Source of the DNA: Flavobacterium sp. LPB0248
GTDB taxonomy: Bacteria > Bacteroidota > Bacteroidia > Flavobacteriales > Flavobacteriaceae
Direction: 5' to 3'
DNA length: 64,000 nt
Assembly: GCF_013388355.1 (NCBI RefSeq)
Contig: NZ_CP058246.1
Coordinates: forward strand, 2,232,001 to 2,296,000
Positions 200 through 14,164 of this stretch are shown piece after piece. The translations under genes were made by a program, and so were the position numbers. The number at the start of each line of letters is the position of its first letter. Position 1 is the stretch's first letter. A model generated the notes under the pieces. The model did not search any database, was not told where the DNA came from, and saw only the letters and a list, made by a program, of their open reading frames with translations.

Positions 200-3079
200 T
201 TATCTCTTAATAAACTTCATCACCTGAGTTTTGTTATTTTCGTCAGAAGCTTTTACAATGTACAATCCTGATTGCAATTCGCTAACGCCAAATTGAGAAT
301 CGGGAGTTCCTTTTGAATTAAAACTTTTCACCAATTGGCCAGAAGCAGAATAAATTTGAACTTTTACAAAACCAGCATTTAAAGTAAAATAATCTGATAC
401 TGGATTTGGATACAGATTAACAGAATTTCCTTTTTCAAAATCTTCTATCGCTAAATTTGCAACTTTATTCCCGTAAATTCTATACTCTCCTGCTGGAAGA
501 TTTACAGGAGCATTAACATCTGTTACTGTAATAGTAGTATTATCCATTAAATTATACCAAGTTCCCGCATACGGAAAACCAGTTGCTACGTTTTGAGCTG
601 TAGTATCAAAATTGGCTAAGATCAAAACATCTTTTAACTGTGCAGAAGTCAAACTGCTGTTTGTAATTTTAATGTTTATTGTTAACGAGTTCGTATTTGG
701 AATAGTTGATATTCCAGAGAAAACAGGCTCTGTTTTTTTAAGTGTAATCATCTTAGCCCAATCGTTATAAATTTTATTACGATTAGAATCGCCTAACCAA
801 TTTTCTGTCCATTGCGGTTGTGGTTTTGTATCTAATTTACAATCGCCAGGAACAGTTGGTGTTTCATCATTTACGGTTCCGTTATTACAGCTAAATATAG
901 AATCGTCCATACCCAATTCTCCAAAATGCCAGATCATTTTTGGCCCAGGAACTAACAGAGAAACTGCACCAATTGCCGACATTCTAGACAAAGCTGTATT
1001 TAACGTTTTTACATTATAAGAACCATTTACAGCTCCATACTGCACATTTTTATACATTAGACGTTCTTCATCATGACTTTCAGCATAACCCATTAAGCGA
1101 TTGGCAATAAAACCATGATTTACGCTTGACATCCTTGAAATGTTGCTATTAGAAGCATACCCCATAGACAATTGGTTGTAAGGATCTGTCATTTTTCCCC
1201 ACATCATAACTCCTTTGCTAGGCGTTTCGGCAACTCTATAATTTGCCCATTGCTGTTCTTCAACATCATCATTTCCTAGATGCTCAAAAATGGTATAATG
1301 TGTTGGATCTATTGCCCAAGAAAAGTCAGCATATTTTTTCAAAACATCAACACGATCTTGCTGATATGCATTTGTACATGTTTGATCTGAAGCTGTACAA
1401 GCCTGTGTAAAACCTTTTGTCAAATCCCAACGGAAACCATCAATTTTATACTCTTGAATCCATTGTTTGATCACTCGACTTACATAATACTGCGTTTTTG
1501 GTGATTGATGATTAAAATCTTCCCCTACACTATAACTATGTTTTGCTACTGTATTAAAATAAGGATTCTCGGCAGTTGGCGATCCAAAACCGTCTCCATC
1601 AGGATCATTCATCCACATTCTCACCATCGGATTTCTTCCAAAAGCATGATTTAATGCAACGTCAAGAATTACTGCAATTCCATTTTGGTGACATAAATCA
1701 ATAAACTCTTTTAATTTATCCGAAGTTCCGTAGAACTTATCCAAAGCCATATGGAATGACGTATTATACCCCCAACTTTCATTGCCTTCAAATTCCATTA
1801 CTGGCATTAACTCGATTGCGTTTATTTTTAGATTCTTAAAATAATCTATTCGATCAATTAAACTTTGATAGCTTCTAGACGCATCAAAATCACGAACCAA
1901 AACTTCGTAAACAACCAGCTTTTCTTTTTCAGGTTTTTCAAAATTGGTTACTTGCCAATTATATGGAGTCTGTCCTGTTTTTAAAACAGTTACTTCAAAA
2001 TTTTGTCCCGCTGGATAAACGGGCATATTTGGATATTTTGAAGCAGGAATTGAAGGATCATCATAAGGAGACAATACTAATGTAGAATATGGATCTGCAA
2101 TTTTTACCATTGATGGCGAATTGGCAATTGGCGTAGTGTCTACAACCCAATATTGATAGGTATTGTTGACACCAGAAACTAATCCAGTTAATTCCAGCCA
2201 AAACTTACCCGAAGTAGGATCCTTTTTCATTGCATATGCCGATGTTGGCTGCCAATTATTGAAGCTTCCTGCAACATAAACAAAGTCTTTTAATGGAGCA
2301 TCCAGAACCAAAGTTGCTTTTGTAGGATCTGCAGCATTGTAATTAATTCCGTCCTCAAGACCTGCTGGCAAAGCTTCAGAAACTGTATTTGGGTTTACGA
2401 CCACCGCAAATTTCTTAGAAACCGTCGTAGTTCCCTGAGTAGCAATCAATTCATAGCTTTGATTGCTAGTAATATTAGTATGTGTATACGAATAGCTCGA
2501 AGTACTAGCATTTGTATTTATTGTTGTTCCGTTGGCTTTCAAAGTATAACTCCCTGCACCTCCTGTATTTGTTGCCGCAATACTAAAACTTGAACCAGAA
2601 GCAATAATAGTACTACTGTTTTCGACAGGCGAAGTTAGGGTCATCTGAAAAGCCCCAACATTAAGAAAAAAGTCGGTACACGACGGAGCCAATTTTAAAG
2701 TTTGAGAACCGTTGGCGCTTCTAAACACAATTCCCATTTTGGTTGCTGCGGTTTGCTGAGCTGTTGTTAAGGCGAAATAAACACTCGGAGTAATCGTTAT
2801 ACTCCAGGTTCCGTTTGCATTTTTAGTCATTAATCCAACTCCATCATCAGCACCCCAGTTTCCTTTAGTGGTTTGCCATGGACTTGCATCTGTACCTATT
2901 CCTGCATGCATATATACTTTTGTAGGATTGGTTCCCATTGTGTTACAAATGCTAGAGGTAAATGAGGCCGTAATTGTAATAGACTCATTAACTTGAAACA
3001 CAGCAGGAGATACTGAAATCTGCTGAGAATTAGCAACAAATGACAACCAAAAGAAAAATAAAAGTAAAGTTTTTTTCAT
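200..3079 (-). CDS. Secreted multidomain GH13 alpha-amylase with T9SS sorting domain
   Basis: A 959-residue protein with an N-terminal signal peptide (MKKTLLLFFFWLSFVANSQ). Next come beta-rich domains, one resembling a CBM48/E-set module (VYVAGSFNNWQP, about 265-315), and then a GH13 barrel from about 390. The GH13 regions are visible: DVALNH, GFRWDLTKG (nucleophile Asp), a Glu in the IFEHLG segment, and AESHDEE. The last 75 residues (NLYPNPVSDYF ... GLYIVKASD ... KFIKR) are a type A type IX sorting domain, so the enzyme should cross the outer membrane through the T9SS and be released or attached at the surface. Its likely job is the first cut in starch. The promoter region carries the same motif as the susC promoter (3180-3202), which ties it to the starch locus although a peptide operon separates them. 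Confidence 0.92.
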   Translation of the reverse strand: MKKTLLLFFFWLSFVANSQQISVSPAVFQVNESITITASFTSSICNTMGTNPTKVYMHAGIGTDASPWQTTKGNWGADDGVGLMTKNANGTWSITITPSVYFALTTAQQTAATKMGIVFRSANGSQTLKLAPSCTDFFLNVGAFQMTLTSPVENSSTIIASGSSFSIAATNTGGAGSYTLKANGTTINTNASTSSYSYTHTNITSNQSYELIATQGTTTVSKKFAVVVNPNTVSEALPAGLEDGINYNAADPTKATLVLDAPLKDFVYVAGSFNNWQPTSAYAMKKDPTSGKFWLELTGLVSGVNNTYQYWVVDTTPIANSPSMVKIADPYSTLVLSPYDDPSIPASKYPNMPVYPAGQNFEVTVLKTGQTPYNWQVTNFEKPEKEKLVVYEVLVRDFDASRSYQSLIDRIDYFKNLKINAIELMPVMEFEGNESWGYNTSFHMALDKFYGTSDKLKEFIDLCHQNGIAVILDVALNHAFGRNPMVRMWMNDPDGDGFGSPTAENPYFNTVAKHSYSVGEDFNHQSPKTQYYVSRVIKQWIQEYKIDGFRWDLTKGFTQACTASDQTCTNAYQQDRVDVLKKYADFSWAIDPTHYTIFEHLGNDDVEEQQWANYRVAETPSKGVMMWGKMTDPYNQLSMGYASNSNISRMSSVNHGFIANRLMGYAESHDEERLMYKNVQYGAVNGSYNVKTLNTALSRMSAIGAVSLLVPGPKMIWHFGELGMDDSIFSCNNGTVNDETPTVPGDCKLDTKPQPQWTENWLGDSNRNKIYNDWAKMITLKKTEPVFSGISTIPNTNSLTINIKITNSSLTSAQLKDVLILANFDTTAQNVATGFPYAGTWYNLMDNTTITVTDVNAPVNLPAGEYRIYGNKVANLAIEDFEKGNSVNLYPNPVSDYFTLNAGFVKVQIYSASGQLVKSFNSKGTPDSQFGVSELQSGLYIVKASDENNKTQVMKFIKR

Positions 3080-3296: not shown

Positions 3297-4595
3297 TTAT
3301 CTTTGAACTAATTTTCTAAATTGATAAAAAACACGTTCAATTAGGCGCATTTCATCAGTGATGATATCTGCCGATCCTGTCAACTCTTTATCAAATTTTA
3401 TATTTCTGCCATAACTAGTTTGAAGTCCTTTAGGCATGGCTACTTCAATAAAATAATTTCCTTCTTTGTCTGCTATTGTAGACATAGACTGCACGCGCCC
3501 TTCCAGCATTCCGTACTCTTGAAAGGGATAATTATCCAATTTGATTAGAACCTTTTGATTTTGCCTTATTTTGCCTGTATTTTGCGACGGAACTTTTAGA
3601 CTACTTACATATTTCCCTTGATCTTCTGGCAAAATAGTCGCAAATAAATCTCCTGCTTTTATGAGTTGGTTTTCCTGCCATGAGTTTTGAAATTTAAAAA
3701 CGCCATCATATGTTGCTTCAAATAAATAACTTTGCTTCCAAATATGAATACTTTTTTTCAACTCATCCAAAGCTTGAAACAAAGACGTTAAATTAGTGAC
3801 ATTTGTTTTTTCTTGAGAAATCTCACTGGCTACAACTTGTTTTTTAGCTTGATTTATAGCTTCTTTTTGTTGCGAAATCGAAGAACTTATCTGGTCATAA
3901 GCTTGTTTGGCTTGCAAGTTATTTGCTTTTTGAGTGTCTAGATCGTATTTTGAAATAACGCCTTTTTCAAACAACTGCAAAGATCTTTTGTATTGTATAT
4001 CACTTAATGAAAGCTTAACTTTTTCAAGCTTTTGCTGTTCGTATAGCGCGGCCAACCTGTTATTGTTTTCTGTTTGAGAACTTTTACCTGCGTTTATTTC
4101 TTCAGAATAAGGATGAAGCTTCTGATTGAGTTCATTCTCAATATATGCCTTATGAAATTGACTAAATGAAGATTGAATATCGCCAAGTTGCACATTACTT
4201 ATTTCTTTAAAAGGGAAATAAAATGTCTGATAATCAGAAGGAATTGATGACACTATTTTATCCAGTTTTAAAACAGCTTCATAATTGGCAGAACTCTCTA
4301 AAATCGCAAGCAAAGTCCCCTTTTTTACTATTGAAGAATTAGCAACACAAAGTTTTACAATTCTAGAATTGACTTTAGATTCGAGCTTTTCTGGAGGATG
4401 ATGTGAAGTCACCACTGCTTTGGCCACAATAACATCTGGATATTTGATAAACCAACAACCTATAACGAACAATAGTATTAATACAAAAACAATTGAAATC
4501 CCATAACGAACAATCCACACTGGCGGATTGGACAATACTTCCTGCACCGACTCAGAGCGCAATTCTATATCTTCTAAAACATTTTTTTGTACCAT
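3297..4595 (-). CDS. HlyD-family membrane fusion protein of peptide exporter
   Basis: A 432-residue periplasmic adaptor. A short cytoplasmic start (LEDIELRSESVQEVLSNPP) leads into one membrane helix at about 32-50, then a lipoyl-like half (PPEKLESKVNSRIVKLCVANSSIVKKGTLLA, split here), a long coiled-coil region of about 130-285 rich in Gln, Lys and Glu, and a beta-barrel C-terminal part. This is the layout of adaptors that pair with peptidase-containing ABC exporters (bacteriocin export). It is the last gene of the peptide operon, 21 bases after the ABC gene. It should link the inner-membrane exporter to an outer-membrane TolC-like channel; no such channel is encoded in the window. Confidence 0.9.
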   Translation of the reverse strand: MVQKNVLEDIELRSESVQEVLSNPPVWIVRYGISIVFVLILLFVIGCWFIKYPDVIVAKAVVTSHHPPEKLESKVNSRIVKLCVANSSIVKKGTLLAILESSANYEAVLKLDKIVSSIPSDYQTFYFPFKEISNVQLGDIQSSFSQFHKAYIENELNQKLHPYSEEINAGKSSQTENNNRLAALYEQQKLEKVKLSLSDIQYKRSLQLFEKGVISKYDLDTQKANNLQAKQAYDQISSSISQQKEAINQAKKQVVASEISQEKTNVTNLTSLFQALDELKKSIHIWKQSYLFEATYDGVFKFQNSWQENQLIKAGDLFATILPEDQGKYVSSLKVPSQNTGKIRQNQKVLIKLDNYPFQEYGMLEGRVQSMSTIADKEGNYFIEVAMPKGLQTSYGRNIKFDKELTGSADIITDEMRLIERVFYQFRKLVQR

Positions 4596-4616
4596 CTTCT
4601 TTTAATTTACCGAACT

Positions 4617-6812
4617 TTAATTCCCTAATTCTAATTGATTTTTAACTAACTTGTAATAGTTTTTTTGAGCTTGAACCAGTTCTTTATGTGTTCCTATTTC
4701 GACAATTTTTCCTTTCTCAAGAACTACAATCTGATCTGCACTTTTTACTGTAGACAATCTATGCGCTATAATTACAGCTGTTTTACCTACTAAATATTCA
4801 TTGAGATTCTCCATTATTACCTTTTCATTATTGGCATCAAGAGAAGAAGTTGCTTCATCAAAAAACAGATAATTAGGGTTTTTATATACTGCTCTGGCAA
4901 TTAAAAGCCTTTGTTTTTGTCCGCCAGAAATTCCCGTGCCTTCGTTTCCAATTTTTGTATTATAAGATAGCGGCAGACTCTCTATAAAGTCTTTAATATT
5001 AGCAATCTCTACAGCATGCAGAAGTCTTTTTTTGTCTACATAGTCTTCACCAACGGCAATATTATTTGCTATAGTATCATTAAAAATAAACCCATCTTGC
5101 ATTACAACTCCACAATTTAATCTCCAGGCACGAGGAGAAATGGTATCAAACTTCATTTTACCTAAACTTATTTCACCTTCATTTGGCTCATAAAACTTCA
5201 TTATAAGTTTAAGCAAAGTTGTTTTTCCACTTCCGCTTGTTCCAACAATTGCCGTTGTTTTTTGTTTTGGAATGATCAAATCTAGTTTTTCCAAAACAAG
5301 AGCTGGATTTCCGTTATATCTAAATGAAAGATTTTTCAAATGAATATCAGAGTGTTCGATGTCCTGAATTTTAGGATTTAAAACATCTTCTTCATTTTCT
5401 TTATCATGAATTTCTCCTAATCTTTCTAAACTTATTTTAGCATCTTGCAATGAGCGTACAAAATCTACCATTTGCATTAACGGACTATTTAACTGTCCAA
5501 TAATATACTGAACAGAAAGCATCATACCTAGTGTAAGTTCTCCTTTTACTACCAAAGTTGCAGCAAAAAAAGTAATAAGTAAATCTTTAAGATGATTGAT
5601 AAAATTTGAACCTACAGATTGCCATTGTTCTAAGGTTAATGCCTGCATGCTCACTTTAAAAAGTCTAATTTGAACAAACTCCCAACCCCAGCGTTTTTGC
5701 TTTTCGGCATTATGCATCTTTATTTCCTGCATTCCATTTATAAGCTCCATTACTTTGGATTGTTCTGTAGCAACCTGAGAAAATCTTTTATAGTCCAGTT
5801 CTTTTCTTTTTTTTAAAAAGAACAAAATCCAAAAAAGATATAATGCTCCTCCGATAAAAAATACCATAAAAAGCTGCATACTATAAAAGGCGAGAACAAA
5901 ACTAAAAACGACTAAATTCATTAACGAAAACACCACATTTAGAGAAGTTCCTGTCAATAATTGCTGTATTCTGTGATTATCGCCAATACGTTGCATAATA
6001 TCTCCTGTCATTCGGCTATCAAAGTAACTTATGGGCAATCTCATTAGTTTAATAAAAAAATCTGAAATGAGCGAAATTTGGATTCGCGTACTTAAATGCA
6101 GCATAATCCAGGAACGTAGAACTTCTATAGATGTTTGCCCTGCAAATAACATTAATTGCGCTAGAAGCATTAAATAAATAAAGTTCAAATCCTGAGTTTG
6201 AATTCCTATATCTACTATACTCTGGGTTAAAAAAGGAAATAATAAGGAGAATAAACTTGCTGTAAGCAACCCAATTATTAATTGAACTACTAATCCTTTA
6301 TATTTAAACAAATATTTTGTAAGATAACTAAACCCTCGTTTGGAATCTTCTGTTTCCCATTCGTTTTCATGGAACTCTGGCGTTGGATCTAAAAACAATA
6401 CAATTCCCTCTTCGGTTTTTTCGTGGGCATTTTTTCCAATCCAAAACTTGATAAAATCATCGTGTGAATAAGAAAGCAAACCGTGGCTGGGATCTGATAC
6501 ATAAACTTTATCTTTAGACACTTTATATACCACAACAAAATGCTGATTATTCCAATGAACAATACAAGGTAATGGCGATTCTGTCTGAAGTGTTTCAAAG
6601 CTAATTTTCATTCCAAGACTTCTAAAGCCTAAGGCTTCTGCCGCATCACTTAATCCCAGTAAACTGCTGCCTTCACGGGTGGTTTCGGCGAGATTACGAA
6701 TTTGTTGCAATTCGATAGCTTTTCCGTAATATTTTGCAATTATACGAAGGCATGTTGGCCCGCAATCTTTAGAATCCGGCTGTTTGTAGAAAGGGAAATT
6801 TCTTATTTTCAA
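4617..6812 (-). CDS. Peptidase-containing ABC transporter (PCAT), C39 leader peptidase
   Basis: A 731-residue bifunctional exporter. The N-terminal C39 cysteine peptidase keeps the oxyanion Gln11, catalytic Cys17 (KDCGPTC), His91 (NQHFVVV) and Asp107 (SDPSHG). A six-helix membrane domain fills about 165-440. The ATPase domain has Walker A GTSGSGKTT (about 525-533), signature ISGGQKQR (about 628), Walker B YLFFDEATS (about 648) and H-loop His near 684. PCATs cut double-glycine leaders and export the core peptide, and both peptides in this operon end their leaders in GG. The start overlaps the stop of the VKOR-thioredoxin gene by 4 bases, so the two are translationally coupled. Confidence 0.95.
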   Translation of the reverse strand: MKIRNFPFYKQPDSKDCGPTCLRIIAKYYGKAIELQQIRNLAETTREGSSLLGLSDAAEALGFRSLGMKISFETLQTESPLPCIVHWNNQHFVVVYKVSKDKVYVSDPSHGLLSYSHDDFIKFWIGKNAHEKTEEGIVLFLDPTPEFHENEWETEDSKRGFSYLTKYLFKYKGLVVQLIIGLLTASLFSLLFPFLTQSIVDIGIQTQDLNFIYLMLLAQLMLFAGQTSIEVLRSWIMLHLSTRIQISLISDFFIKLMRLPISYFDSRMTGDIMQRIGDNHRIQQLLTGTSLNVVFSLMNLVVFSFVLAFYSMQLFMVFFIGGALYLFWILFFLKKRKELDYKRFSQVATEQSKVMELINGMQEIKMHNAEKQKRWGWEFVQIRLFKVSMQALTLEQWQSVGSNFINHLKDLLITFFAATLVVKGELTLGMMLSVQYIIGQLNSPLMQMVDFVRSLQDAKISLERLGEIHDKENEEDVLNPKIQDIEHSDIHLKNLSFRYNGNPALVLEKLDLIIPKQKTTAIVGTSGSGKTTLLKLIMKFYEPNEGEISLGKMKFDTISPRAWRLNCGVVMQDGFIFNDTIANNIAVGEDYVDKKRLLHAVEIANIKDFIESLPLSYNTKIGNEGTGISGGQKQRLLIARAVYKNPNYLFFDEATSSLDANNEKVIMENLNEYLVGKTAVIIAHRLSTVKSADQIVVLEKGKIVEIGTHKELVQAQKNYYKLVKNQLELGN

Positions 6813-8386
6813 AGTACTGCTTTTTTAGTTTTAATTAAACTTTCAAGAAAATAACTGAGTTCGTTAATTTCATATTCTTTAGGCAAAACATATCCGTTTA
6901 CGATAATCGCTGGAGCAAACAAAAGATAATTCTCATAACACCAATTATACTGCTCCTGAATAATCTCTTCAGATACAAAGTCCTTAGTAGTCCCCCATTT
7001 AGATGTCCATTTTTCTAAAGTCATTTTCTCAATATGCCAATCCTTTAATGCATCTTGAACTTTCTCTTTTTCGTCATTAAAATAAAAATGTGCAACCTGA
7101 TGATAGATCTGGTTATTTGGATTATTTTCATTTTTAATATTGACATTAAAAAGCAATCTTACTTTTATTTCATCTGGATTTTTTTCAATCAATTTTATAA
7201 TGTTTTCAAACGCTGAATGGCAATGTCCACATGAGGCGCTTAGTAATGCATAAATTGTAACGGGCGCATCGTATTTACCCATAGAAACAGCTTTCAGCCT
7301 ATTAATACTTTCAGTATCTATTTGCTGAGAATCTTTTAACAAAGCATTAAAAACCAGATTTTTTCTTTTGAACTGATTGTGTTTTATTTCGATTTTTTTT
7401 AATTCAATATTCTTTTTAAAAAGTGTTTTAAATTTAAGCCAACATAACAGCACCAAACCTAAAATAAGGATATAAGAAATCGTATTGATGGCGTTAAAAG
7501 CACCCTTATATCTTGTCAAAAAACTTAAAATCAAAATAATCTGAAACAATAAAACACCAACAATTCCAAGACATAAAACACACCATTTTTTCAGAACAAA
7601 ATACTGATAATAAACAGAATAAATTAAAACTGGAATACTCAATAGTGCTAAACTTGCATAAATAGCAAAACTATTTTCAAAAGCTAAATACAGAGTTGAA
7701 AAAGAGATTGACAAAAAATAAATTATAGAAATATCACTTAAACTTATAGCACCAAAAATTTTCGCTCCTTTTGAAGACAATACTGCTTTACAACTGGTTT
7801 TCTCGTTTACATTACAGATTTTAGAAACAGATTCGTTGTGAATTCCTATTTCCTCTCTAATAAGAAATACACTTGTAATAAGTCCTATTATTGCAGACAA
7901 ATAATAAAAGGTTGCAAAAATTAAATTTGCACCATTATTTATAAAAATCAAAAGCAGTGAAAAAATAAACATGGAGCCGGCAACCCAATTATTTTTTACC
8001 GATAAACTGAATTTTCTTTGTGTTTCATTTTTCTCTATAGCAACTACAATTCCTGTCCAGATGATAAAAAACTCTGCCTCCGAAATTATTTTTTTATAGC
8101 CGTTTGAAAATTCAATTCTTATTTTATGATGCAATTTTTCGGTTAAAACGGTTTCTTTTCCAGTATCAGATTCTACTACAGATATAAAACATTCCGGAAG
8201 GTTTTCAAATTCTCCCTTCTCAACTTTTATCGCTAAATTTTCAATTTCAAGAAAATTAAAAGTATCTATAATAGCATACAAACTCGGGAAATTAGGATGC
8301 GATTCTAATTGTGTCAATATCTCATCTTCAAAATCATAATAATGATTCTTACGTAAGTATCTTTTTAAATAGTTAAAATTATTCAT
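6809..8386 (-). CDS. C39-like / VKOR / thioredoxin fusion, disulfide-forming membrane enzyme
   Basis: A 525-residue protein in three parts. Residues 1-120 resemble a C39 peptidase fold (FPSLYAIIDTFNFLEIENLA ... IIWTGIVVAIE) without the DCGPTC catalytic cysteine, so it is probably a binding domain for leader peptide or exporter. Residues 130-320 hold several membrane helices with the VKOR cysteines: loop pair Cys191 and Cys199, and active-site CVLC (269-272). The C-terminal domain has a thioredoxin-type CGHC (386-389). VKOR-Trx fusions oxidise thiols on the periplasmic side and pass electrons to quinone. Placed between the peptide genes and the exporter, its likely substrates are the 4 and 6 cysteines of the two core peptides. 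A role in quinone-linked disulfide formation is well supported; the substrate is inferred. Confidence 0.88.
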   Translation of the reverse strand: MNNFNYLKRYLRKNHYYDFEDEILTQLESHPNFPSLYAIIDTFNFLEIENLAIKVEKGEFENLPECFISVVESDTGKETVLTEKLHHKIRIEFSNGYKKIISEAEFFIIWTGIVVAIEKNETQRKFSLSVKNNWVAGSMFIFSLLLIFINNGANLIFATFYYLSAIIGLITSVFLIREEIGIHNESVSKICNVNEKTSCKAVLSSKGAKIFGAISLSDISIIYFLSISFSTLYLAFENSFAIYASLALLSIPVLIYSVYYQYFVLKKWCVLCLGIVGVLLFQIILILSFLTRYKGAFNAINTISYILILGLVLLCWLKFKTLFKKNIELKKIEIKHNQFKRKNLVFNALLKDSQQIDTESINRLKAVSMGKYDAPVTIYALLSASCGHCHSAFENIIKLIEKNPDEIKVRLLFNVNIKNENNPNNQIYHQVAHFYFNDEKEKVQDALKDWHIEKMTLEKWTSKWGTTKDFVSEEIIQEQYNWCYENYLLFAPAIIVNGYVLPKEYEINELSYFLESLIKTKKAVL

Positions 8387-8388
8387 GT

Positions 8389-9669
8389 TTAAACTATATT
8401 TAGTGGCAATAAAATTTCATGATAAACGCATCTGTCCATTACAAAAGAGAAGACTTTTTCTTTTAAATCTTCTAATGAAATACTTTGCATAAAGAATTCA
8501 TCTTTTGATATTTCGAGTATTATTTGATTAATTGTATTTTGTTCACGAAAGAAAAGCAATAAAAAATCCCAATCTTCCATTTCTAATTTTTCTTCTGTTT
8601 TATGCTGAGGCGAATAATAGTAAAGTTCTATTTCATCTTCAGAAATTTCATTTAATCGCGTCGTTTTTGAAAGCTGAAATGGTGTTTCTAAAATAGCATC
8701 CCAATCTGTGTTTTCTAACCATGCATAAATTTTAGACAGAAATTCAAAACGTTTTTCATCATCAAGAATTTCCAATTCTGAACTTAAGTTATTCTTTATC
8801 AGATTTCGATTTAGTTTTTCATATTCTAAAGGAAATTCATATTTCAATCTGTATTTTAACTGTTCGCACATTTCGATAGATTTCTTGGCATAACCAACAG
8901 TATGAATATAGCTTTCTTTGATTGGGACCAAATGAAATTTCATTACGTTTGTAAATGCTTCATTCATTTTTGGTTTAAGAAAACTAATCTCAATTTGTTT
9001 TTTTTGTGCCATTTCAAAACCCAACATTTGCTCATAAACCATATTAAAAACGCCAAGATTAATTTTATCTAGCTGCTCTAAATTGTCATCTATAATCTGA
9101 AAAACTGTTGATTTAAACTCTTTAAAAAAGGAGACATTATTTCCTCCTATTATTCCGGCATTAAATGCAAACACGTCATTAGTTTGCTCATAAATTGGGA
9201 ATAAACTCTTAGGGAAATTTTGAAATTCTTTAAAAGTCGTCTCTAAAACTTCTTTATACTTTGGAAAATTAAATTCAAAATTCTGAGCTAACAGATCTGC
9301 ATCCAAAAGCGGTTGCGGAAGTTTATCCCAAACAAAAACATCTGTATCCGCATGAATAAACGGAGCTTCCTGAAGAGAATAAGCCAATATTTTTCCTAAT
9401 GCCCACAACTCTGACGGATAATTTTGCAAAGAATTCAAATCTAATAGCGCTTTAGAATACGGAATCTCAAGTTTATCAATTAATAATTCCTTTCCTAAAT
9501 CATCTGTGTAAAGTAAAACTTCACCATAGTTTTGCTTAAATTTTAAGCAACTCAACAGACAAGAGTAAAAAAAGAAGTTGGCACTGAGCCAACCTCCTTT
9601 AAATCTTGCATTCAAATCGTCATTTTCTTTAAAAAAAGGTTTTGACCAAAAACTTTGAATGATTTTCAT
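8389..9669 (-). CDS. DUF6734-type glycosyltransferase-like protein, partner of peptide A
   Basis: A 426-residue soluble protein starting MKIIQSFWSKPF. Residues 1-290 look like a GT-A glycosyltransferase: a nucleotide-sugar DxD (HADTDVFVW, Asp108 and Asp110) and a later FNAGIIGGN segment, as in GT8/GT32-like enzymes. Residues 331-426 (LSKTTRL ... EDWDFLLLFF ... INQIILEI ... VFSFVMDRC) have the strand-then-three-helix pattern of PqqD-like RiPP recognition elements; this is a judgement by eye. It is about 45% identical by eye to the protein at 10948-12222. Only 3 bases (an extra TAA stop) separate it from the peptide A gene, so the pair is coupled. Likely a sugar transferase acting on the peptide core; the family has no function known to me. 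Confidence 0.7.
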   Translation of the reverse strand: MKIIQSFWSKPFFKENDDLNARFKGGWLSANFFFYSCLLSCLKFKQNYGEVLLYTDDLGKELLIDKLEIPYSKALLDLNSLQNYPSELWALGKILAYSLQEAPFIHADTDVFVWDKLPQPLLDADLLAQNFEFNFPKYKEVLETTFKEFQNFPKSLFPIYEQTNDVFAFNAGIIGGNNVSFFKEFKSTVFQIIDDNLEQLDKINLGVFNMVYEQMLGFEMAQKKQIEISFLKPKMNEAFTNVMKFHLVPIKESYIHTVGYAKKSIEMCEQLKYRLKYEFPLEYEKLNRNLIKNNLSSELEILDDEKRFEFLSKIYAWLENTDWDAILETPFQLSKTTRLNEISEDEIELYYYSPQHKTEEKLEMEDWDFLLLFFREQNTINQIILEISKDEFFMQSISLEDLKEKVFSFVMDRCVYHEILLPLNIV

Positions 9670-9672
9670 TTA

Positions 9673-9888
9673 CTAGCATTTTACACAGTAATAACCATAT
9701 ACATTACCCGTGTATATTGGGCGAGGATCTGTGCAACCATTTGCATTATAAACAGGATTTGTATATGAAGTTCCAGCTGGGCAGCATGGGCGGAAACATG
9801 GACTAACATCATAACCTCCTGAAATAGTTTTTGCTTCTTCTAAAGATAAAATAGCTCCTTTTATTTTGTTTAATAAATTATTTTTCAT
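9673..9888 (-). CDS. Cysteine-rich double-glycine-leader precursor peptide A
   Basis: 71 residues. The leader (1-25) reads LNKIKGAILSLEEAKTISGG from residue 6 and ends in GG, the PCAT cleavage site. The predicted core of 46 residues has six cysteines (31, 35, 36, 52, 68, 71), enough for three disulfides, and is rich in Tyr, Pro and Gly. Cysteines 31, 36, 52 and 68 have the same spacing as the four cysteines of peptide B; 35 and 71 are extra and may form a third bond. Ser29 (SPC) and Thr53 (GCT) are also shared with peptide B and are candidate sugar acceptors. The leader type matches Bacteroidota GG-leader natural-product precursors. Bacteriocin activity is likely but not shown by sequence. 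Confidence 0.85.
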   Translation of the reverse strand: MKNNLLNKIKGAILSLEEAKTISGGYDVSPCFRPCCPAGTSYTNPVYNANGCTDPRPIYTGNVYGYYCVKC

Positions 9889-10080
9889 TTTTTGTTAATT
9901 AAAAATTACCTACTCATTAGCTTTTCGGTATCCGCTTTTGGTTATTTTGAAATCTCCTCTTTACGATTTAAATTTCAAACTTGGTTTAAGGTTGCGCAAC
10001 CTCCTATTTAGAATCCTCTTATTTACATTTGCAACTGTAATTAATCGGATCATAAATCACATCTAATATTTGTTTTTATA
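9889..10080 (-). promoter_or_regulatory. Conserved upstream leader of peptide A with 14-base palindrome
   Basis: About 190 bases upstream of peptide A are clearly related to those upstream of peptide B. Shared elements on the coding strand, in order: AGTTGCAAATG, the perfect palindrome AGGTTGCGCAACCT (9989-10002), and CGAAAAGCTAATGAGTAG near 9910-9927. The palindrome is 101 bases from the start codon (108 in peptide B). It may be a dimeric regulator site, and the downstream block a conserved 5' UTR. No regulator gene lies in the operon. Confidence 0.6.
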
Positions 10081-10100
10081 ATTACTAAGCTTTTTAAAGC

Positions 10101-10943
10101 TTAAAGCATTTTTCGTTTATCGAATACTCTTCTAATTTGATTTTCGTTAAATCGTAATAAATCATCAATATTTTCAACACTTAAAAGCTTTAATTCATTC
10201 CAGATTCCGTTATTGTTTTTTAATGGATGGAAATTTTGAATGTATTTGTAATTATGATCATCCAATGATTTCCATAACTTAAAATAACTCTCTGAATTGA
10301 AATCATTTTTATGTCCCCAATTGGTAATTTTCTGGTAAATTTCAGTCTCTTCTCTTGCCCAAGATTGATGCACTAAAACTGACTCAGATTCAATTTTTTC
10401 ATTGTCTTCGTTGACTCTTCCATAATAGCAAATTGGATTTGAAGTCGCCACCCAACAGTTTTCTTTTACAGGAGAAATCACAAGAAATCCTTTTTCGATT
10501 TTTTTAAACAAATTTGCAAATCTGACTGTAACTGAAATTTGGTTGAGTAATCTGTTTCTTTCCAGATATATTTTCTCTAATTCATTTATAAAGGAGCTAA
10601 AATCGATAAAGTATTCATCACAATCTAGTTGAATATACCAATCGCATTTACCCATTTTTGAATATAAATAATTGCGTTCTACCGTTTCATTTATCATGGG
10701 TGAAAGCGTCGTGTTGCAAAAAGAATCTTCGAGAATTTTGATTTTGCGTTGTGTATCAAATGCTTTTATCCATTCAAAAAAATCATTCGGGATTTCAAAC
10801 TTATTTCCTGACCAGGTTAATCTGTCTTTATCGACAACCAGAATAATCTCCTGCACCTTATTATTGTCATAAATTTTTGGAAGAGAATACTTTAAATAGT
10901 TATAATCATACGAAATTAAATACCCCACTTTTACAATCATCAT
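10101..10943 (-). CDS. Glycosyltransferase (GT2/GT92-like) of the peptide operon
   Basis: 280 residues from the ATG at 10943, which sits 4 bases after the stop of the preceding DUF6734 gene. A longer reading from 11021 overlaps that gene by 74 bases and is unlikely. The start MMIVKVGYLISYDYNYLKYS is followed by a nucleotide-sugar motif WYIQLDCDEYF (Asp107 and Asp109) after a conserved R-N-Y segment, the pattern of GT2/GT92 enzymes that act on a donor sugar with a metal ion. No membrane helix is apparent, so it should act in the cytoplasm before export. A hairpin (TAAGCTTT..AAAGCTTA, 10086-10103) overlaps its stop. Its place right after the peptide B pair suggests a second sugar or a distinct site on the same peptides. 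Confidence 0.72.
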   Translation of the reverse strand: MMIVKVGYLISYDYNYLKYSLPKIYDNNKVQEIILVVDKDRLTWSGNKFEIPNDFFEWIKAFDTQRKIKILEDSFCNTTLSPMINETVERNYLYSKMGKCDWYIQLDCDEYFIDFSSFINELEKIYLERNRLLNQISVTVRFANLFKKIEKGFLVISPVKENCWVATSNPICYYGRVNEDNEKIESESVLVHQSWAREETEIYQKITNWGHKNDFNSESYFKLWKSLDDHNYKYIQNFHPLKNNNGIWNELKLLSVENIDDLLRFNENQIRRVFDKRKML

Positions 10944-10947
10944 ATAA

Positions 10948-12222
10948 TCAATTAGAAATGAATTCTGGTAAAATAATTTCGTGTAGCAAGCATTTGTCAA
11001 ATACAAAAGATAGCAAGACATCTGTCAATGCGTCTTTAGAATATTTAACTTGAATATCTGAATCCAATAGTAATTCGGCACATAATTCTTTTACTGAAAT
11101 GGCCTCCTCAAAATACAGCAGAATATTATCCCAATCTTCAAGTTCTAAAATTTCGGGACCTAAAGTTTGGGGCGAAATATATTCGACTTTATTTAAAGTA
11201 TCATTTTCAATTATTTTAGCTGTTTTATTTAATTTAAATTTTATTGAAGCAATCTGATCCAAAGAATTCGTTCTTACATAGTTAAAAACTGAAAACAAAA
11301 AATCTTTTCTTTTGGGTGATATTTCATAAAACGACTCCCATAAATTATGTTTTATTCCGTTATTTTTAATTCGTTCATATTCCTCGGGAAATTCATACAT
11401 CAATAACGCCTCAATCTGCTCGCAGGCATAAATCGATTTTTTGGCAAATCCAATTGCGTGAATATATTTTGAATGAAAAGAAGCAAGGTGAAAGTTGACC
11501 AATGTTGTAAAATTAGAATCGACATTCTGGAACATTGATTTTGGCTGCACTCCTTTTTTTTCTGCTATTGCAAATCCGAGTTGTTGCTCATAAATCATAT
11601 TAAAAATTCCGACATCTATTTTATCAAACAGCAGTTTGTTTTTGTTAATAAATTCATCAGAGCGAGAATATAGCTTTTTAAAAAAGTCTAAATCAGTTCC
11701 GCCAATAATTCCTGCATTGTAAGCCAATACCGTTTTATGTTTATATAAGGAGTTGATTAATTCTGTTGGAACCCATTCAAAAAGGGTCAAAATCTCATTT
11801 AATGCCTCACCATAAATAGGGAAATTTTCTTCAATATTCTGACAAAATAAAGATGACGAAACTAGATCTTCTGGCAGTTTCTCCCAAATAAAAACATCGG
11901 TATCTGCATGTATAAACGGTTTTTGCTGTACACTGTAAGTATGGATTTTAGGATATGCCCACAGTTTCTCGTTTATATTGTCTAAAGAATCAAAGCAATT
12001 TATGTAATTGGTATATGGAATTCCAAGTTTGTCTTTTAATATTGTTTCTCCATTTGTATCGGTATATAAATTTACTTCTCCATAAAATTCCTTAAACTTT
12101 AAACAGCTTAAAGTCATACTGAAATAAAAATATTTCTCATTTAGCCATCCACCTTTAAATCTGCTGTTAGGATCAATGGAATCACTTAAAAATGGTTTTG
12201 ACCAAAAGCTTTGTACAATCAT
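10948..12222 (-). CDS. DUF6734-type glycosyltransferase-like protein, partner of peptide B
   Basis: A 424-residue paralogue of the protein at 8389-9669, starting MIVQSFWSKPF. It keeps the DxD (FIHADTDVFIW, Asp107 and Asp109), the YNAGIIGGTDLDFF segment, IHAIGFAKKSI and the WSKPF and RFKGGWL blocks near the start. The last 96 residues (from about 329: LNKTAKII ... EDWDNILLYF ... SVKELCAELL ... LLSFVFDKC) again resemble a PqqD-like recognition domain. The gene is 59 bases downstream of peptide B, with a terminator-like hairpin in the gap. Each peptide thus has its own copy, which suggests that the enzymes are matched to their substrates. Confidence 0.7.
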   Translation of the reverse strand: MIVQSFWSKPFLSDSIDPNSRFKGGWLNEKYFYFSMTLSCLKFKEFYGEVNLYTDTNGETILKDKLGIPYTNYINCFDSLDNINEKLWAYPKIHTYSVQQKPFIHADTDVFIWEKLPEDLVSSSLFCQNIEENFPIYGEALNEILTLFEWVPTELINSLYKHKTVLAYNAGIIGGTDLDFFKKLYSRSDEFINKNKLLFDKIDVGIFNMIYEQQLGFAIAEKKGVQPKSMFQNVDSNFTTLVNFHLASFHSKYIHAIGFAKKSIYACEQIEALLMYEFPEEYERIKNNGIKHNLWESFYEISPKRKDFLFSVFNYVRTNSLDQIASIKFKLNKTAKIIENDTLNKVEYISPQTLGPEILELEDWDNILLYFEEAISVKELCAELLLDSDIQVKYSKDALTDVLLSFVFDKCLLHEIILPEFISN

Positions 12223-12244
12223 AATTTTAGAGTATCGAAAAAAT

Positions 12245-12266
12245 AAGAGGTTTTTTCAAACCCCTT
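12245..12266 (-). terminator. Terminator-like hairpin between peptide B and its enzyme
   Basis: On the minus strand AAGGGGTTT, loop gaaa, AAACCTCTT, then ATTTTTT. The stem has 8 of 9 pairs. A leaky stop here would give more peptide B mRNA than enzyme mRNA, as in many bacteriocin operons. There is no such hairpin after peptide A. Confidence 0.65.
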
Positions 12267-12281
12267 AAATCTTTTTATTAA

Positions 12282-12515
12282 TTAAAGAACCACACAATAT
12301 AAAGATGGGTTTGGTTTATAAATGTATAGGTTTCTTGGAGTGCATCCCGCTGGAGTTGCGATTGCTGAGCCTCTGTTTTCTACAGCTCCACAAATAATAA
12401 AAGAGCATGGACTACCATCAATAAACGAACCTCCAGTATAACCACCAGAAATAGTTTTTGCTTCATCTTTGGATAAAATGGCACCTTTGACTCTATTCAA
12501 AACATCTTTTTTCAT
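12282..12515 (-). CDS. Cysteine-rich double-glycine-leader precursor peptide B
   Basis: 77 residues. The leader (1-25) is nearly the same as in peptide A (LNRVKGAILSKDEAKTISGG from residue 6), again ending in GG. The predicted 52-residue core starts YTGG and has four cysteines (37, 42, 58, 74) spaced C-x4-C-x15-C-x15-C, exactly as four of the six in peptide A. SPC, GCT, PR and YCV are shared with peptide A, while the residues between them differ, as expected for cores that diverge on a fixed scaffold. It is first in the operon and has its own conserved upstream leader. Export and leader removal by the PCAT at 4617-6812 are strongly suggested. Confidence 0.83.
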   Translation of the reverse strand: MKKDVLNRVKGAILSKDEAKTISGGYTGGSFIDGSPCSFIICGAVENRGSAIATPAGCTPRNLYIYKPNPSLYCVVL

Positions 12516-12700
12516 TTTAATAAATTTTGATATTTTACATGTCTACTCATTAGCTTTTCGACTTCCGCTTTTTGGTTATTACAAAATCATCTTTTAGTGA
12601 CATCAATTTCAGGCTCGGTCTTAGGTTGCGCAACCTGTATTTAAGAGTCTTTTGATTTGCATTTGCAACTACAAACTAATCAGACTAATAAATCAAATAA
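12516..12700 (-). promoter_or_regulatory. Conserved upstream leader of peptide B with 14-base palindrome
   Basis: Second copy of the leader found upstream of peptide A. It holds the same palindrome AGGTTGCGCAACCT (12623-12636), the AGTTGCAAATG block just upstream and the CGAAAAGCTAATGAGTAG block near 12545-12562. Sequence between the blocks has drifted, so conservation is focused on these elements. It most likely contains the operon promoter; I could not place a convincing flavobacterial TAnnTTTG box. Confidence 0.6.
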
Positions 12701-12750
12701 AATGGGATTTTCTAGCAGTAAAATGCTATTGATTTTTTAAAAATATAAAA

Positions 12751-12985: not shown

Positions 12986-14164
12986 TTATAATCCTGAAAC
13001 AACAGCTGTTCCATCAAAATTTACAGTTAATTTTGGTTTAGCTCCAGCAGTAACATTAAAGTTTTCTCCTGTTCCACCATCTCCAACAAAAAGTAAATCT
13101 CCTACATTGAATGTCCAATCTTTACCAGCTCCATTAATATAAATACCAGTATTTTTAGATCTGAATTTCATTGGTCCAGCAGTGATATCTGTTCCTGCAT
13201 AAGCCCACGTATTTGTAGCAAAATCATATCCCATGGCGCTTTCTGAATCCCATCCACCATTTGTAGCGGCTCCAATTACACCCCATTGCATTTTAACAAC
13301 TTTAACTTTCATTGCATCCATATCTACACGTACATAGTATAAACCTACTCCGTCTGCTTCAGCAACTTTAAGATCTGAACTTCCTCCATCATTTTTTAAA
13401 CTAAATTCTTGTCCACCAGAAATTGCAGCAACTGCTCCGTCTGTACCATAATTACCGTTATCCCAAGTTTTTCCGTCTCCTGTAAATTTAAATCCATCAC
13501 CAACACTTACTTTCACAAAAGCTTCAAAAATTTTAGTACCTGTTTTTGAATCCCCAATATACTTCATCGAAATACCATTTTTCTCATCCCAAGCAGATTT
13601 TCCATAATAAGCCTGTGGAGCACCAACTAAAAATAATTCTGGAGTAGTAAATACAATTTTTTCGTAAGCATTAATTTTCATTAATTGTGTTGTAGAGTAA
13701 CCAACTACTAAAGATTTTTCAGCAATAGCTTTAACACGAACATCAAATTCAGCCAAAGTACCAAATTTAACTTTTGCTTTTCCATTAGAAACCAATGTAG
13801 TACTTAGTCTATTCACAGCAGCATTTAAATCTCCAAAAGTAAAAGCTTGTGATAAAGTTGAAACACTAGTTGGAAACACATCTACAGCGCTAGAAAAATC
13901 ACTTCCTGCTGGAGCAATTTGAATGTAATAGCTTACTGGCCCGTTATATTGCAATTCTGCTGCAGACCATTTAAAAGTACCTGCTGCCGTATCTTCATTT
14001 ACATCTTGTTGAACAGCGTATTCAGCAGGTGCTGGAAGAGCTTCCAAAACTGGTACGGTTACAATCTTTTCGTTTTCATTTACGATAATATCTGGATCAT
14101 CATCACTACATGATGTTATAGCAAATGCAAGTAGTCCTAGTAATAAAAAAGTTAATTTTTTCAT
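12986..14164 (-). CDS. SusE/SusF-like starch-binding outer-membrane lipoprotein
   Basis: 392 residues with a lipoprotein signal (LLAFAITSC, Cys at 19) followed by acidic DDDP, a common surface-export signal in Bacteroidota lipoproteins. The N-terminal part (about 40-160) resembles the SusE domain (FKWSAAELQYNGPVSYYIQ), and the rest has two beta-rich repeats (ELFLVGAPQAYYGKSAW and MQWGVIGAATNGGWDSE), each like a SusE/SusF carbohydrate-binding module with Trp residues for stacking on glucan. It is third in the susCDE operon, 22 bases after susD, and ends at a clear terminator. Starch binding is inferred from the whole locus. Confidence 0.85.
   Translation of the reverse strand: MKKLTFLLLGLLAFAITSCSDDDPDIIVNENEKIVTVPVLEALPAPAEYAVQQDVNEDTAAGTFKWSAAELQYNGPVSYYIQIAPAGSDFSSAVDVFPTSVSTLSQAFTFGDLNAAVNRLSTTLVSNGKAKVKFGTLAEFDVRVKAIAEKSLVVGYSTTQLMKINAYEKIVFTTPELFLVGAPQAYYGKSAWDEKNGISMKYIGDSKTGTKIFEAFVKVSVGDGFKFTGDGKTWDNGNYGTDGAVAAISGGQEFSLKNDGGSSDLKVAEADGVGLYYVRVDMDAMKVKVVKMQWGVIGAATNGGWDSESAMGYDFATNTWAYAGTDITAGPMKFRSKNTGIYINGAGKDWTFNVGDLLFVGDGGTGENFNVTAGAKPKLTVNFDGTAVVSGL

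Follow-up and report, generated by a model that had tools for sequence, protein, structure and literature searches.

A Flavobacterium gene cluster encoding two candidate glycopeptide precursors and predicted leader-docking glycosyltransferases of the DUF6734 family

Eight minus-strand genes lie in one run from position 12515 to position 3297 of the window, which is the whole 64,000-nucleotide stretch of Flavobacterium sp. LPB0248 analyzed here (contig NZ_CP058246.1, positions 2,232,001 to 2,296,000). They probably form a cluster for ribosomally synthesized and post-translationally modified peptides (RiPPs) that makes two glycosylated, disulfide-bonded, secreted products. In the order of transcription, the list of open reading frames (ORFs) and Pfam place here precursor peptide 1 (12282 to 12515), DUF6734-A (10948 to 12222), a third glycosyltransferase-like protein (10101 to 10943), precursor peptide 2 (9673 to 9888), DUF6734-B (8389 to 9669), a VKOR-thioredoxin disulfide-forming protein (6809 to 8386), a peptidase-containing ATP-binding cassette transporter (PCAT; 4617 to 6812), and an HlyD-family adaptor (3297 to 4595). 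Successive genes are separated by 59, 4, 212, 3, and 2 bases, by a 4-base overlap (VKOR-thioredoxin and PCAT), and by 21 bases. The ORF list starts the third glycosyltransferase at 11021, inside DUF6734-A, and the ATG at 10943 was chosen as the better fit. An earlier note on this DNA, made from the letters and the ORFs, had described the same eight genes on one strand, and the ORFs, Pfam matches, and motifs read here bear this out.

The precursors, of 77 and 71 amino acids (aa), share a type of double-glycine leader (ending in KTISGG in peptide 1) and have cores with four and six Cys, respectively; they align with other peptides of the window type (21 in all), eight other rows of which are CSF..C homologues of peptide 1. 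DUF6734-A and DUF6734-B are 44% identical and match PF20508 with 324.5 and 313.2 bits (Pfam cut-off, 27 bits). The VKOR-thioredoxin protein matches VKOR (59.9 bits) and Thioredoxin_4 (29.9 bits), both above their cut-offs, and carries the motifs WCVLC (VKOR) and CGHC (thioredoxin). The PCAT, predicted to cleave the leader and export the product, matches Peptidase_C39, ABC_membrane, and ABC_tran, and the catalytic Cys, His, and Asp of its C39 domain can be read in KDCGPTC, NNQHFV, and SDPS; the adaptor matches HlyD_3 (44.5 bits). Both peptides and the third glycosyltransferase (DCDEY motif) are without a Pfam match. As the earlier note had said, the eight proteins have no lanthipeptide (LanB, LanM, or LanC), radical-SAM, YcaO, or ATP-grasp domain by Pfam. 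Lanthipeptides, sactipeptides and other radical-SAM products, YcaO products, and graspetides are ruled out because the enzymes of those classes are missing from this set.

The unit of peptide plus DUF6734 is duplicated, with leaders, peptides, and enzymes repeated at 72 to 80% DNA identity in ungapped blocks about 2.6 kb apart; the leader repeat between peptides 1 and 2 is 79% identical over 81 nucleotides (nt). The same gene order is found in F. branchiicola (L110), F. taihuense (L111), and F. silvaticum (L114, without a recognized peptide 2), and also, minus the third glycosyltransferase, in Aquimarina (L115). In F. branchiicola CCM 9061, DUF6734-B shares 92% identity with the window protein. 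Since the order recurs in these four loci, the grouping of the eight genes is not due to chance. The cluster is flanked by a SusE gene (12986 to 14164) and an alpha-amylase gene (200 to 3079), and it occupies the same position between SusE and amylase in F. branchiicola and F. taihuense. In two genus mates with no DUF6734 in the genus search list (L226 and L227), homologues of the two flanking genes (41 to 42% identity for SusE and 59 to 66% for the amylase) adjoin directly, with about 45 to 55 bases between them. The island thus forms a discrete segment some 9.9 kb long.

An AlphaFold2 model of DUF6734-B, built with 50 aligned sequences, has a predicted local distance difference test score of 94.6 and a predicted template modeling score of 0.93, and in it residues 1 to 292 adopt a GT-A fold. 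Foldseek ranks human glycogenin-1 first (E = 2.4e-5) and LgtC fifth, and VIA-align of residues 1 to 291 gives glycogenin-2 (4ueg_A) at Z 12.5 and 3.8 Å over 211 aligned residues. Glycosyltransferases of the GT8 family carry a DxD motif and a C-terminal HxxGxxK motif, and DUF6734 has counterparts of both (D108 and D110; H256, G259, and K262). In an alignment of 50 of the 62 long DUF6734 proteins, K93, H106, D108, D110, N170, G172, G175, G176, E213, Q214, H256, and K262 are kept in every sequence and G259 is kept in 49. The GT8 profile PF01501 does not match, PF20508 being the only Pfam family found in DUF6734 at E ≤ 0.1. SunS, the glycosyltransferase of sublancin-type glycocins, is not among the 50 VIA rows listed for DUF6734-B, an absence that carries no weight. 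DUF6734 thus has a GT8-like GT-A domain, which is probably retaining and metal dependent.

The last 105 residues of DUF6734-B (322 to 426), a part that the earlier note had missed, give a second domain of three strands followed by helices when modeled alone (predicted local distance difference test score, 89.8). By model and VIA, this domain has the PqqD-like winged fold of a RiPP recognition element (RRE), and its best VIA rows are RREs or RRE-containing proteins. At the top is 3dee (Z 10.6, 3.2 Å, 96 aligned), described as a DUF2063-associated RRE in PMC12710340. It is followed by complexes of TbiB1 with a leader (Z 10.2, 2.0 Å, 84 aligned; Z 9.8, 2.6 Å, 87 aligned), TigE (8.8, 3.0 Å, 83 aligned), NisB (8.6, 3.8 Å, 92 aligned), MibB (8.2), TbtB (8.0), PqqD (7.7), and MccB (7.5). 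Unrelated winged-helix proteins (PKMT, MINA53, and NO66) rank below the RREs, at Z 5.5 to 7.0. We take residues 322 to 426 to be an RRE, with leader binding as its predicted function, and the modeled protein as a whole looks like a leader-docking peptide glycosyltransferase.

The scan of named genomes yielded 191 pattern stretches, of which 140 were confirmed and the best 80 kept, giving 77 loci; these are the best-scoring part of the confirmed stretches, found with patterns drawn from long-form proteins, and nearly all are from Bacteroidota by title. A long DUF6734 (at least 400 aa) is present in 53 of the loci and a short form in 24. A search of DUF6734 neighbors for double-glycine peptides and PCATs, as the earlier note had proposed, finds a same-strand peptide no more than 3 kb away in 41 of the 53 long-form loci; in these 20-kb loci, a PCAT is present in 30, HlyD in 26, and VKOR in 28. 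The peptide pattern was written after the peptides of these loci had been viewed, so the 41 of 53 is partly circular, and it is the contrast with the controls (short-form loci and distant positions, scored identically) rather than the raw count that serves as evidence. The pattern is absent from all 24 short-form loci (Fisher P = 2e-11), and in the long-form loci it picks out 57 peptides near DUF6734 versus 7 elsewhere. Peptide, PCAT, and VKOR occur together in 17 of the 53. The earlier note had regarded DUF6734 genes standing mostly without peptide or exporter as counterevidence; this does not hold for the long form, where 50 of 53 loci have one or the other (L148, L149, and L174 have neither by the pattern, although L148 has a double-glycine peptide by eye), but it does describe many short forms. 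For comparison, the 3.98-Mb host genome has six C39 matches, so a randomly chosen gene would have on average about 0.03 of them within 10 kb.

The cores of the 57 pattern peptides beside long DUF6734 are 11% Cys, with an even number in 46, an odd number in 9, and none in 2. Even counts are as expected for disulfides; an odd count would leave one Cys free for some other role, like that in sublancin. Among the 21 window-type cores, the only invariant residues are the Tyr after the double glycine and four Cys; that position is Tyr or Ser in 42 of the 57 cores of the wider set. In 17 cognate pairs, core distance tracks DUF6734 distance (r = 0.82; Mantel P = 2e-4, a value that ignores shared ancestry), leader distance does so less (r = 0.52; Mantel P = 2e-4), and the nearest neighbors of core and enzyme agree in 14 of the pairs.

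From the gene set, the folds, the conserved catalytic motifs, and the recurrence computed here, we infer an order of steps for the cluster. Each precursor would dock by its double-glycine leader onto the RRE-like domain of the neighboring DUF6734, the GT-A domain of which would then glycosylate a core side chain with a nucleotide sugar as the donor. In clusters that have it, the third glycosyltransferase may lengthen this sugar or attach another. The PCAT would cut after the double glycine and export the product with HlyD, and outside the cytoplasm the VKOR-thioredoxin protein would introduce two or three disulfides. A bacteriocin-like or signaling peptide is the probable product. Glycogenin, the closest structural relative, glycosylates a polypeptide, and it does so on Tyr; by analogy, and given the Tyr after the double glycine, an aromatic hydroxyl could accept the sugar under the tentative new-class reading given below, although Tyr, Ser, Thr, and Cys are all candidates. 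The earlier note had assigned glycosylation of the cores to the DUF6734 proteins together with the third glycosyltransferase, with disulfides forming on export. The GT-A fold, motifs, RRE-like domain, neighborhood, and codivergence support this as a prediction, except that the third glycosyltransferase, present in this cluster type in only 4 of 78 loci (the window, L110, L111, and L114, among the window and the 77), is an optional accessory.

Several results weigh against peptide glycosylation or leader docking, as do the selection of the 77 loci, the partial circularity of the peptide count, and the ancestry hidden in the Mantel values. The 21 window-type cores have no invariant Ser or Thr, and a PDB profile search with the window-type DUF6734 gave no match. 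For the C-terminal domain, Foldseek alone found nothing at E ≤ 0.001 (best, TigE at 9.2e-3), a Pfam scan of 18 such domains found no PqqD, and profile comparison did not relate the C-terminal domain of the window type to that of the other long subfamily; the domain of this other subfamily gave only marginal PqqD-chaperone matches (E = 0.15 and 0.22). Furthermore, VIA places a GlcNAc-1-phosphotransferase (7sj2_A; Z 11.9, 4.4 Å, 254 aligned) in a tie with glycogenin, within 1 Z. The GT-A domain might therefore carry out another transfer (of sugar phosphate or a nucleotidyl group) on a peptide bound via the RRE, the product not being a simple glycopeptide. We consider this improbable, as Foldseek ranks glycogenin and LgtC highest and the DxD and HxxGxxK motifs fit GT8.

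It is similarly unlikely that the peptides are ordinary disulfide-containing double-glycine bacteriocins and that DUF6734 glycosylates something else or acts as a chaperone or immunity protein. Such peptides would need no more than the PCAT, HlyD, and VKOR, the NCBIfam matches of the peptides are weak, confined to the leader, and nearest to bacteriocin-like and TIGR04149 leaders, and some DUF6734 genes (e.g., L006 and L106 to L109) have no peptide or exporter, which also counts against peptide glycosylation. However, the RRE-like fold, the retention of the catalytic residues in all 50 aligned sequences, and the adjacency and codivergence of peptide and DUF6734 argue against this reading. A glycocin-family system with a diverged SunS-type enzyme would account for the same set of parts (peptide, glycosyltransferase, PCAT, and thiol-disulfide protein), but it is very improbable: none of the three glycosyltransferases matches the SunS family TIGR04195 at E ≤ 0.1, the six weak TIGR04195 matches of the genome are all below the cut-off and outside the cluster, and the fold of DUF6734 is nearest to glycogenin and is joined to an RRE-like domain. 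Glycosylation of the two peptides by DUF6734 remains the reading that we prefer.

With no TIGR04195 match in the cluster, a SunS-type glycocin was rejected on sequence. The likeness to glycocins (sublancin, glycocin F, pallidocin, and enterocin F4-9) is nevertheless close: both window peptides have a double-glycine leader and a Cys-rich core, and by Pfam a PCAT and a thiol-disulfide protein stand beside a glycosyltransferase, as in the glycocin parts list (PMC12457901 and PMC9576775). Known glycocins were reported from Bacillota. The window differs in having an enzyme that combines a GT8-like GT-A domain with an RRE-like one where glycocins have a SunS-family enzyme, and in its Gram-negative export with HlyD. 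Glycocin loci have separate thioredoxins, where this cluster has a VKOR-thioredoxin protein. DUF6734 shares with the GT8 enzymes glycogenin and LgtC the GT-A fold, DxD, and HxxGxxK but differs from them in its extra domain, in the lack of a PF01501 match, and in an identity of about 10% in structure alignments.

Glycosyltransferases joined to RREs, as proposed here, have been noted before, by the authors of RRE-Finder in 2020 (PMC7470986) and as fusions with PF00535 (GT2) in 2025 (PMC12710340). The passages on these fusions do not name DUF6734 and report no product, and the 2020 set may overlap with DUF6734. In a survey of Bacteroidales RiPPs (PMC10352776), peptide S-glycosyltransferase-like genes occur with radical SAM or LanC, a composition other than that of the window. 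An open-access literature search found no paper that names DUF6734 or PF20508. The "new class" of the earlier note is too strong, as all parts other than the enzyme are those of a glycocin and fusions of RREs with glycosyltransferases had been noted already. Folds, motifs, and neighborhood instead support a glycosylated RiPP system that would work like a glycocin system but with an enzyme of a new type, the chemistry of which is predicted.

Short-form DUF6734 proteins have a different neighborhood. A LanC-like gene is present in 13 of the 24 short-form loci, within 38 bases in 11 of these, versus 1 of the 53 long-form loci. Pfam on short-form neighbors (67 scanned of 115 listed) gives LANC_like 16 times and lantibiotic dehydratase twice. 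In L121, L125, L126, L127, L129, L130, L136, L141, L158, L180, and others, a short DUF6734 without an RRE adjoins a LanC-like gene of about 580 to 670 aa, mostly with no LanB among the scanned neighbors. The adjacency in 13 of 24 loci is a likeness to lanthipeptide-type LanC loci, from which the window cluster differs in having no LanB, LanM, or LanC. Short DUF6734 and the LanC-like gene perhaps form a second peptide-glycosylation system. In L082 (6579 to 8839) and L103 (6303 to 8886), a short DUF6734, a PCAT, and HlyD adjoin peptides with a common long leader, a core starting with ILGACH, and a single Cys. It is a tentative proposal, which we hold with somewhat less than even confidence, that all of this amounts to a new RiPP class of Bacteroidota, in which GT8-like, probably retaining and alpha-linking peptide glycosyltransferases are guided by an RRE in a disulfide-peptide branch and act without an RRE on LanC-associated peptides.

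Searches at an E cut-off of 0.001 detect DUF6734 in 12 of 299 family genomes, 16 of 395 phylum genomes, and 25 of 199 genus genomes, the host genome being counted each time; a plasmid search found a relative in 2 of 72,556 records, neither with ≥80% query coverage. Among long-form neighbors (78 scanned of 138 listed; 25 of 76 families shown), thioredoxin- or redoxin-like proteins are the commonest, followed by DUF6625 (7), with LANC_like and SPASM twice each. DUF6625 lies directly upstream of long DUF6734 (7 of the 78 neighbors; e.g., L167, 8826 to 9995, and L135, 8829 to 10004) and is perhaps another modifying enzyme. The Aquimarina locus L115 has a hexapeptide-repeat acyltransferase-like gene (6848 to 7495) between two peptide genes, and L148, titled as a Lachnospiraceae metagenome-assembled genome, has a long and a short DUF6734 with a double-glycine peptide, reflecting either transfer beyond Bacteroidota or a misassigned bin. 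The third long DUF6734 of the host genome (443 aa; L005, G000:C1:1565000-1584000, 8214 to 10112) is accompanied by a 51-aa double-glycine peptide with two Cys and no exporter nearby, and near-identical pairs occur in other Flavobacterium (L168, L179, and L184). Also in the host genome, a 281-aa DUF6734 (L006, G000:C1:1335500-1354500) follows genes that by eye are tail-fibre/chaperone-domain-like, with no peptide or exporter found. Many genus genomes have tandem divergent DUF6734 pairs (75 to 87 bits, about 280 to 300 aa; e.g., G510:C18:303406-304966), and no double-glycine peptide was seen in the fetched loci of these.

Homologues of the third glycosyltransferase are present in 56 of 199 genus genomes, and a paralogue at G000:C1:3464288 lies, by eye, in a surface-polysaccharide locus; a PDB profile search with this protein gave no match. 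A separate PHROGs search gave none. In the VKOR-thioredoxin protein, residues 21 to 121 resemble Peptidase_C39 (E = 0.014, under the cut-off) and are missing the catalytic Cys, and this stretch is perhaps a second leader-binding part.

Both peptide genes are preceded by a repeated leader that matches the DUF805b RNA (RF02914; gathering score, 35.6): on the minus strand, 37.7 bits at 9907 to 9938, 18 bases before peptide 2, and 32.4 bits, under the gathering score, at 12540 to 12571, 24 bases before peptide 1, the repeat being 73% identical over 101 nt. The 212-base gap, where the earlier note saw a promoter-like leader, does not hold the sole leader, as peptide 1 also has one. When folded, the two leaders scored no better than shuffled sequences (z = −0.52 and +0.80), which leaves the Rfam match as the one support for their structure. 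DUF805b precedes peptide genes at the gathering score in L110, L111 (both), L114, and L117, and none was reported in L115 or L118. Nine RF02914 matches are listed for the host genome, two of them above the gathering score: the two window sites and G000:C1:3121732, 3827234, 3343860, 3912160, 2881393, 2882304, and 3338586. Three of the nine precede double-glycine peptides, one of these with a further C39 exporter 1.5 kb downstream, and the others precede, by eye, DUF805-, TM2-, or DUF308-like genes. DUF805b may be a regulatory RNA common to RiPP and membrane-stress genes; no paper found in the open-access search names DUF805b. Sigma-70-like sites between 3000 and 13100 were not enriched (55 versus 48.6, standard deviation 6.3, in shuffles), and terminator-like hairpins, including a weak one by pattern scan at 12244 to 12267 (minus strand) between peptide 1 and DUF6734-A, were at the level of chance (6 versus 4.2, standard deviation 2.7).

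The cluster would show Bacteroidota making glycosylated peptides by a new route, and it would add a second means, with no relation to SunS, of placing sugars on exported bacterial peptides. DUF6734, a Pfam family without a functional name, gains a specific and testable role. A leader-docking glycosyltransferase, if this is what it is, would be a convenient tool for sugar tagging of peptides. As the family occurs in many genera of Bacteroidota, a phylum with few characterized RiPPs, its peptides can be mined for glycopeptides that are probably new.

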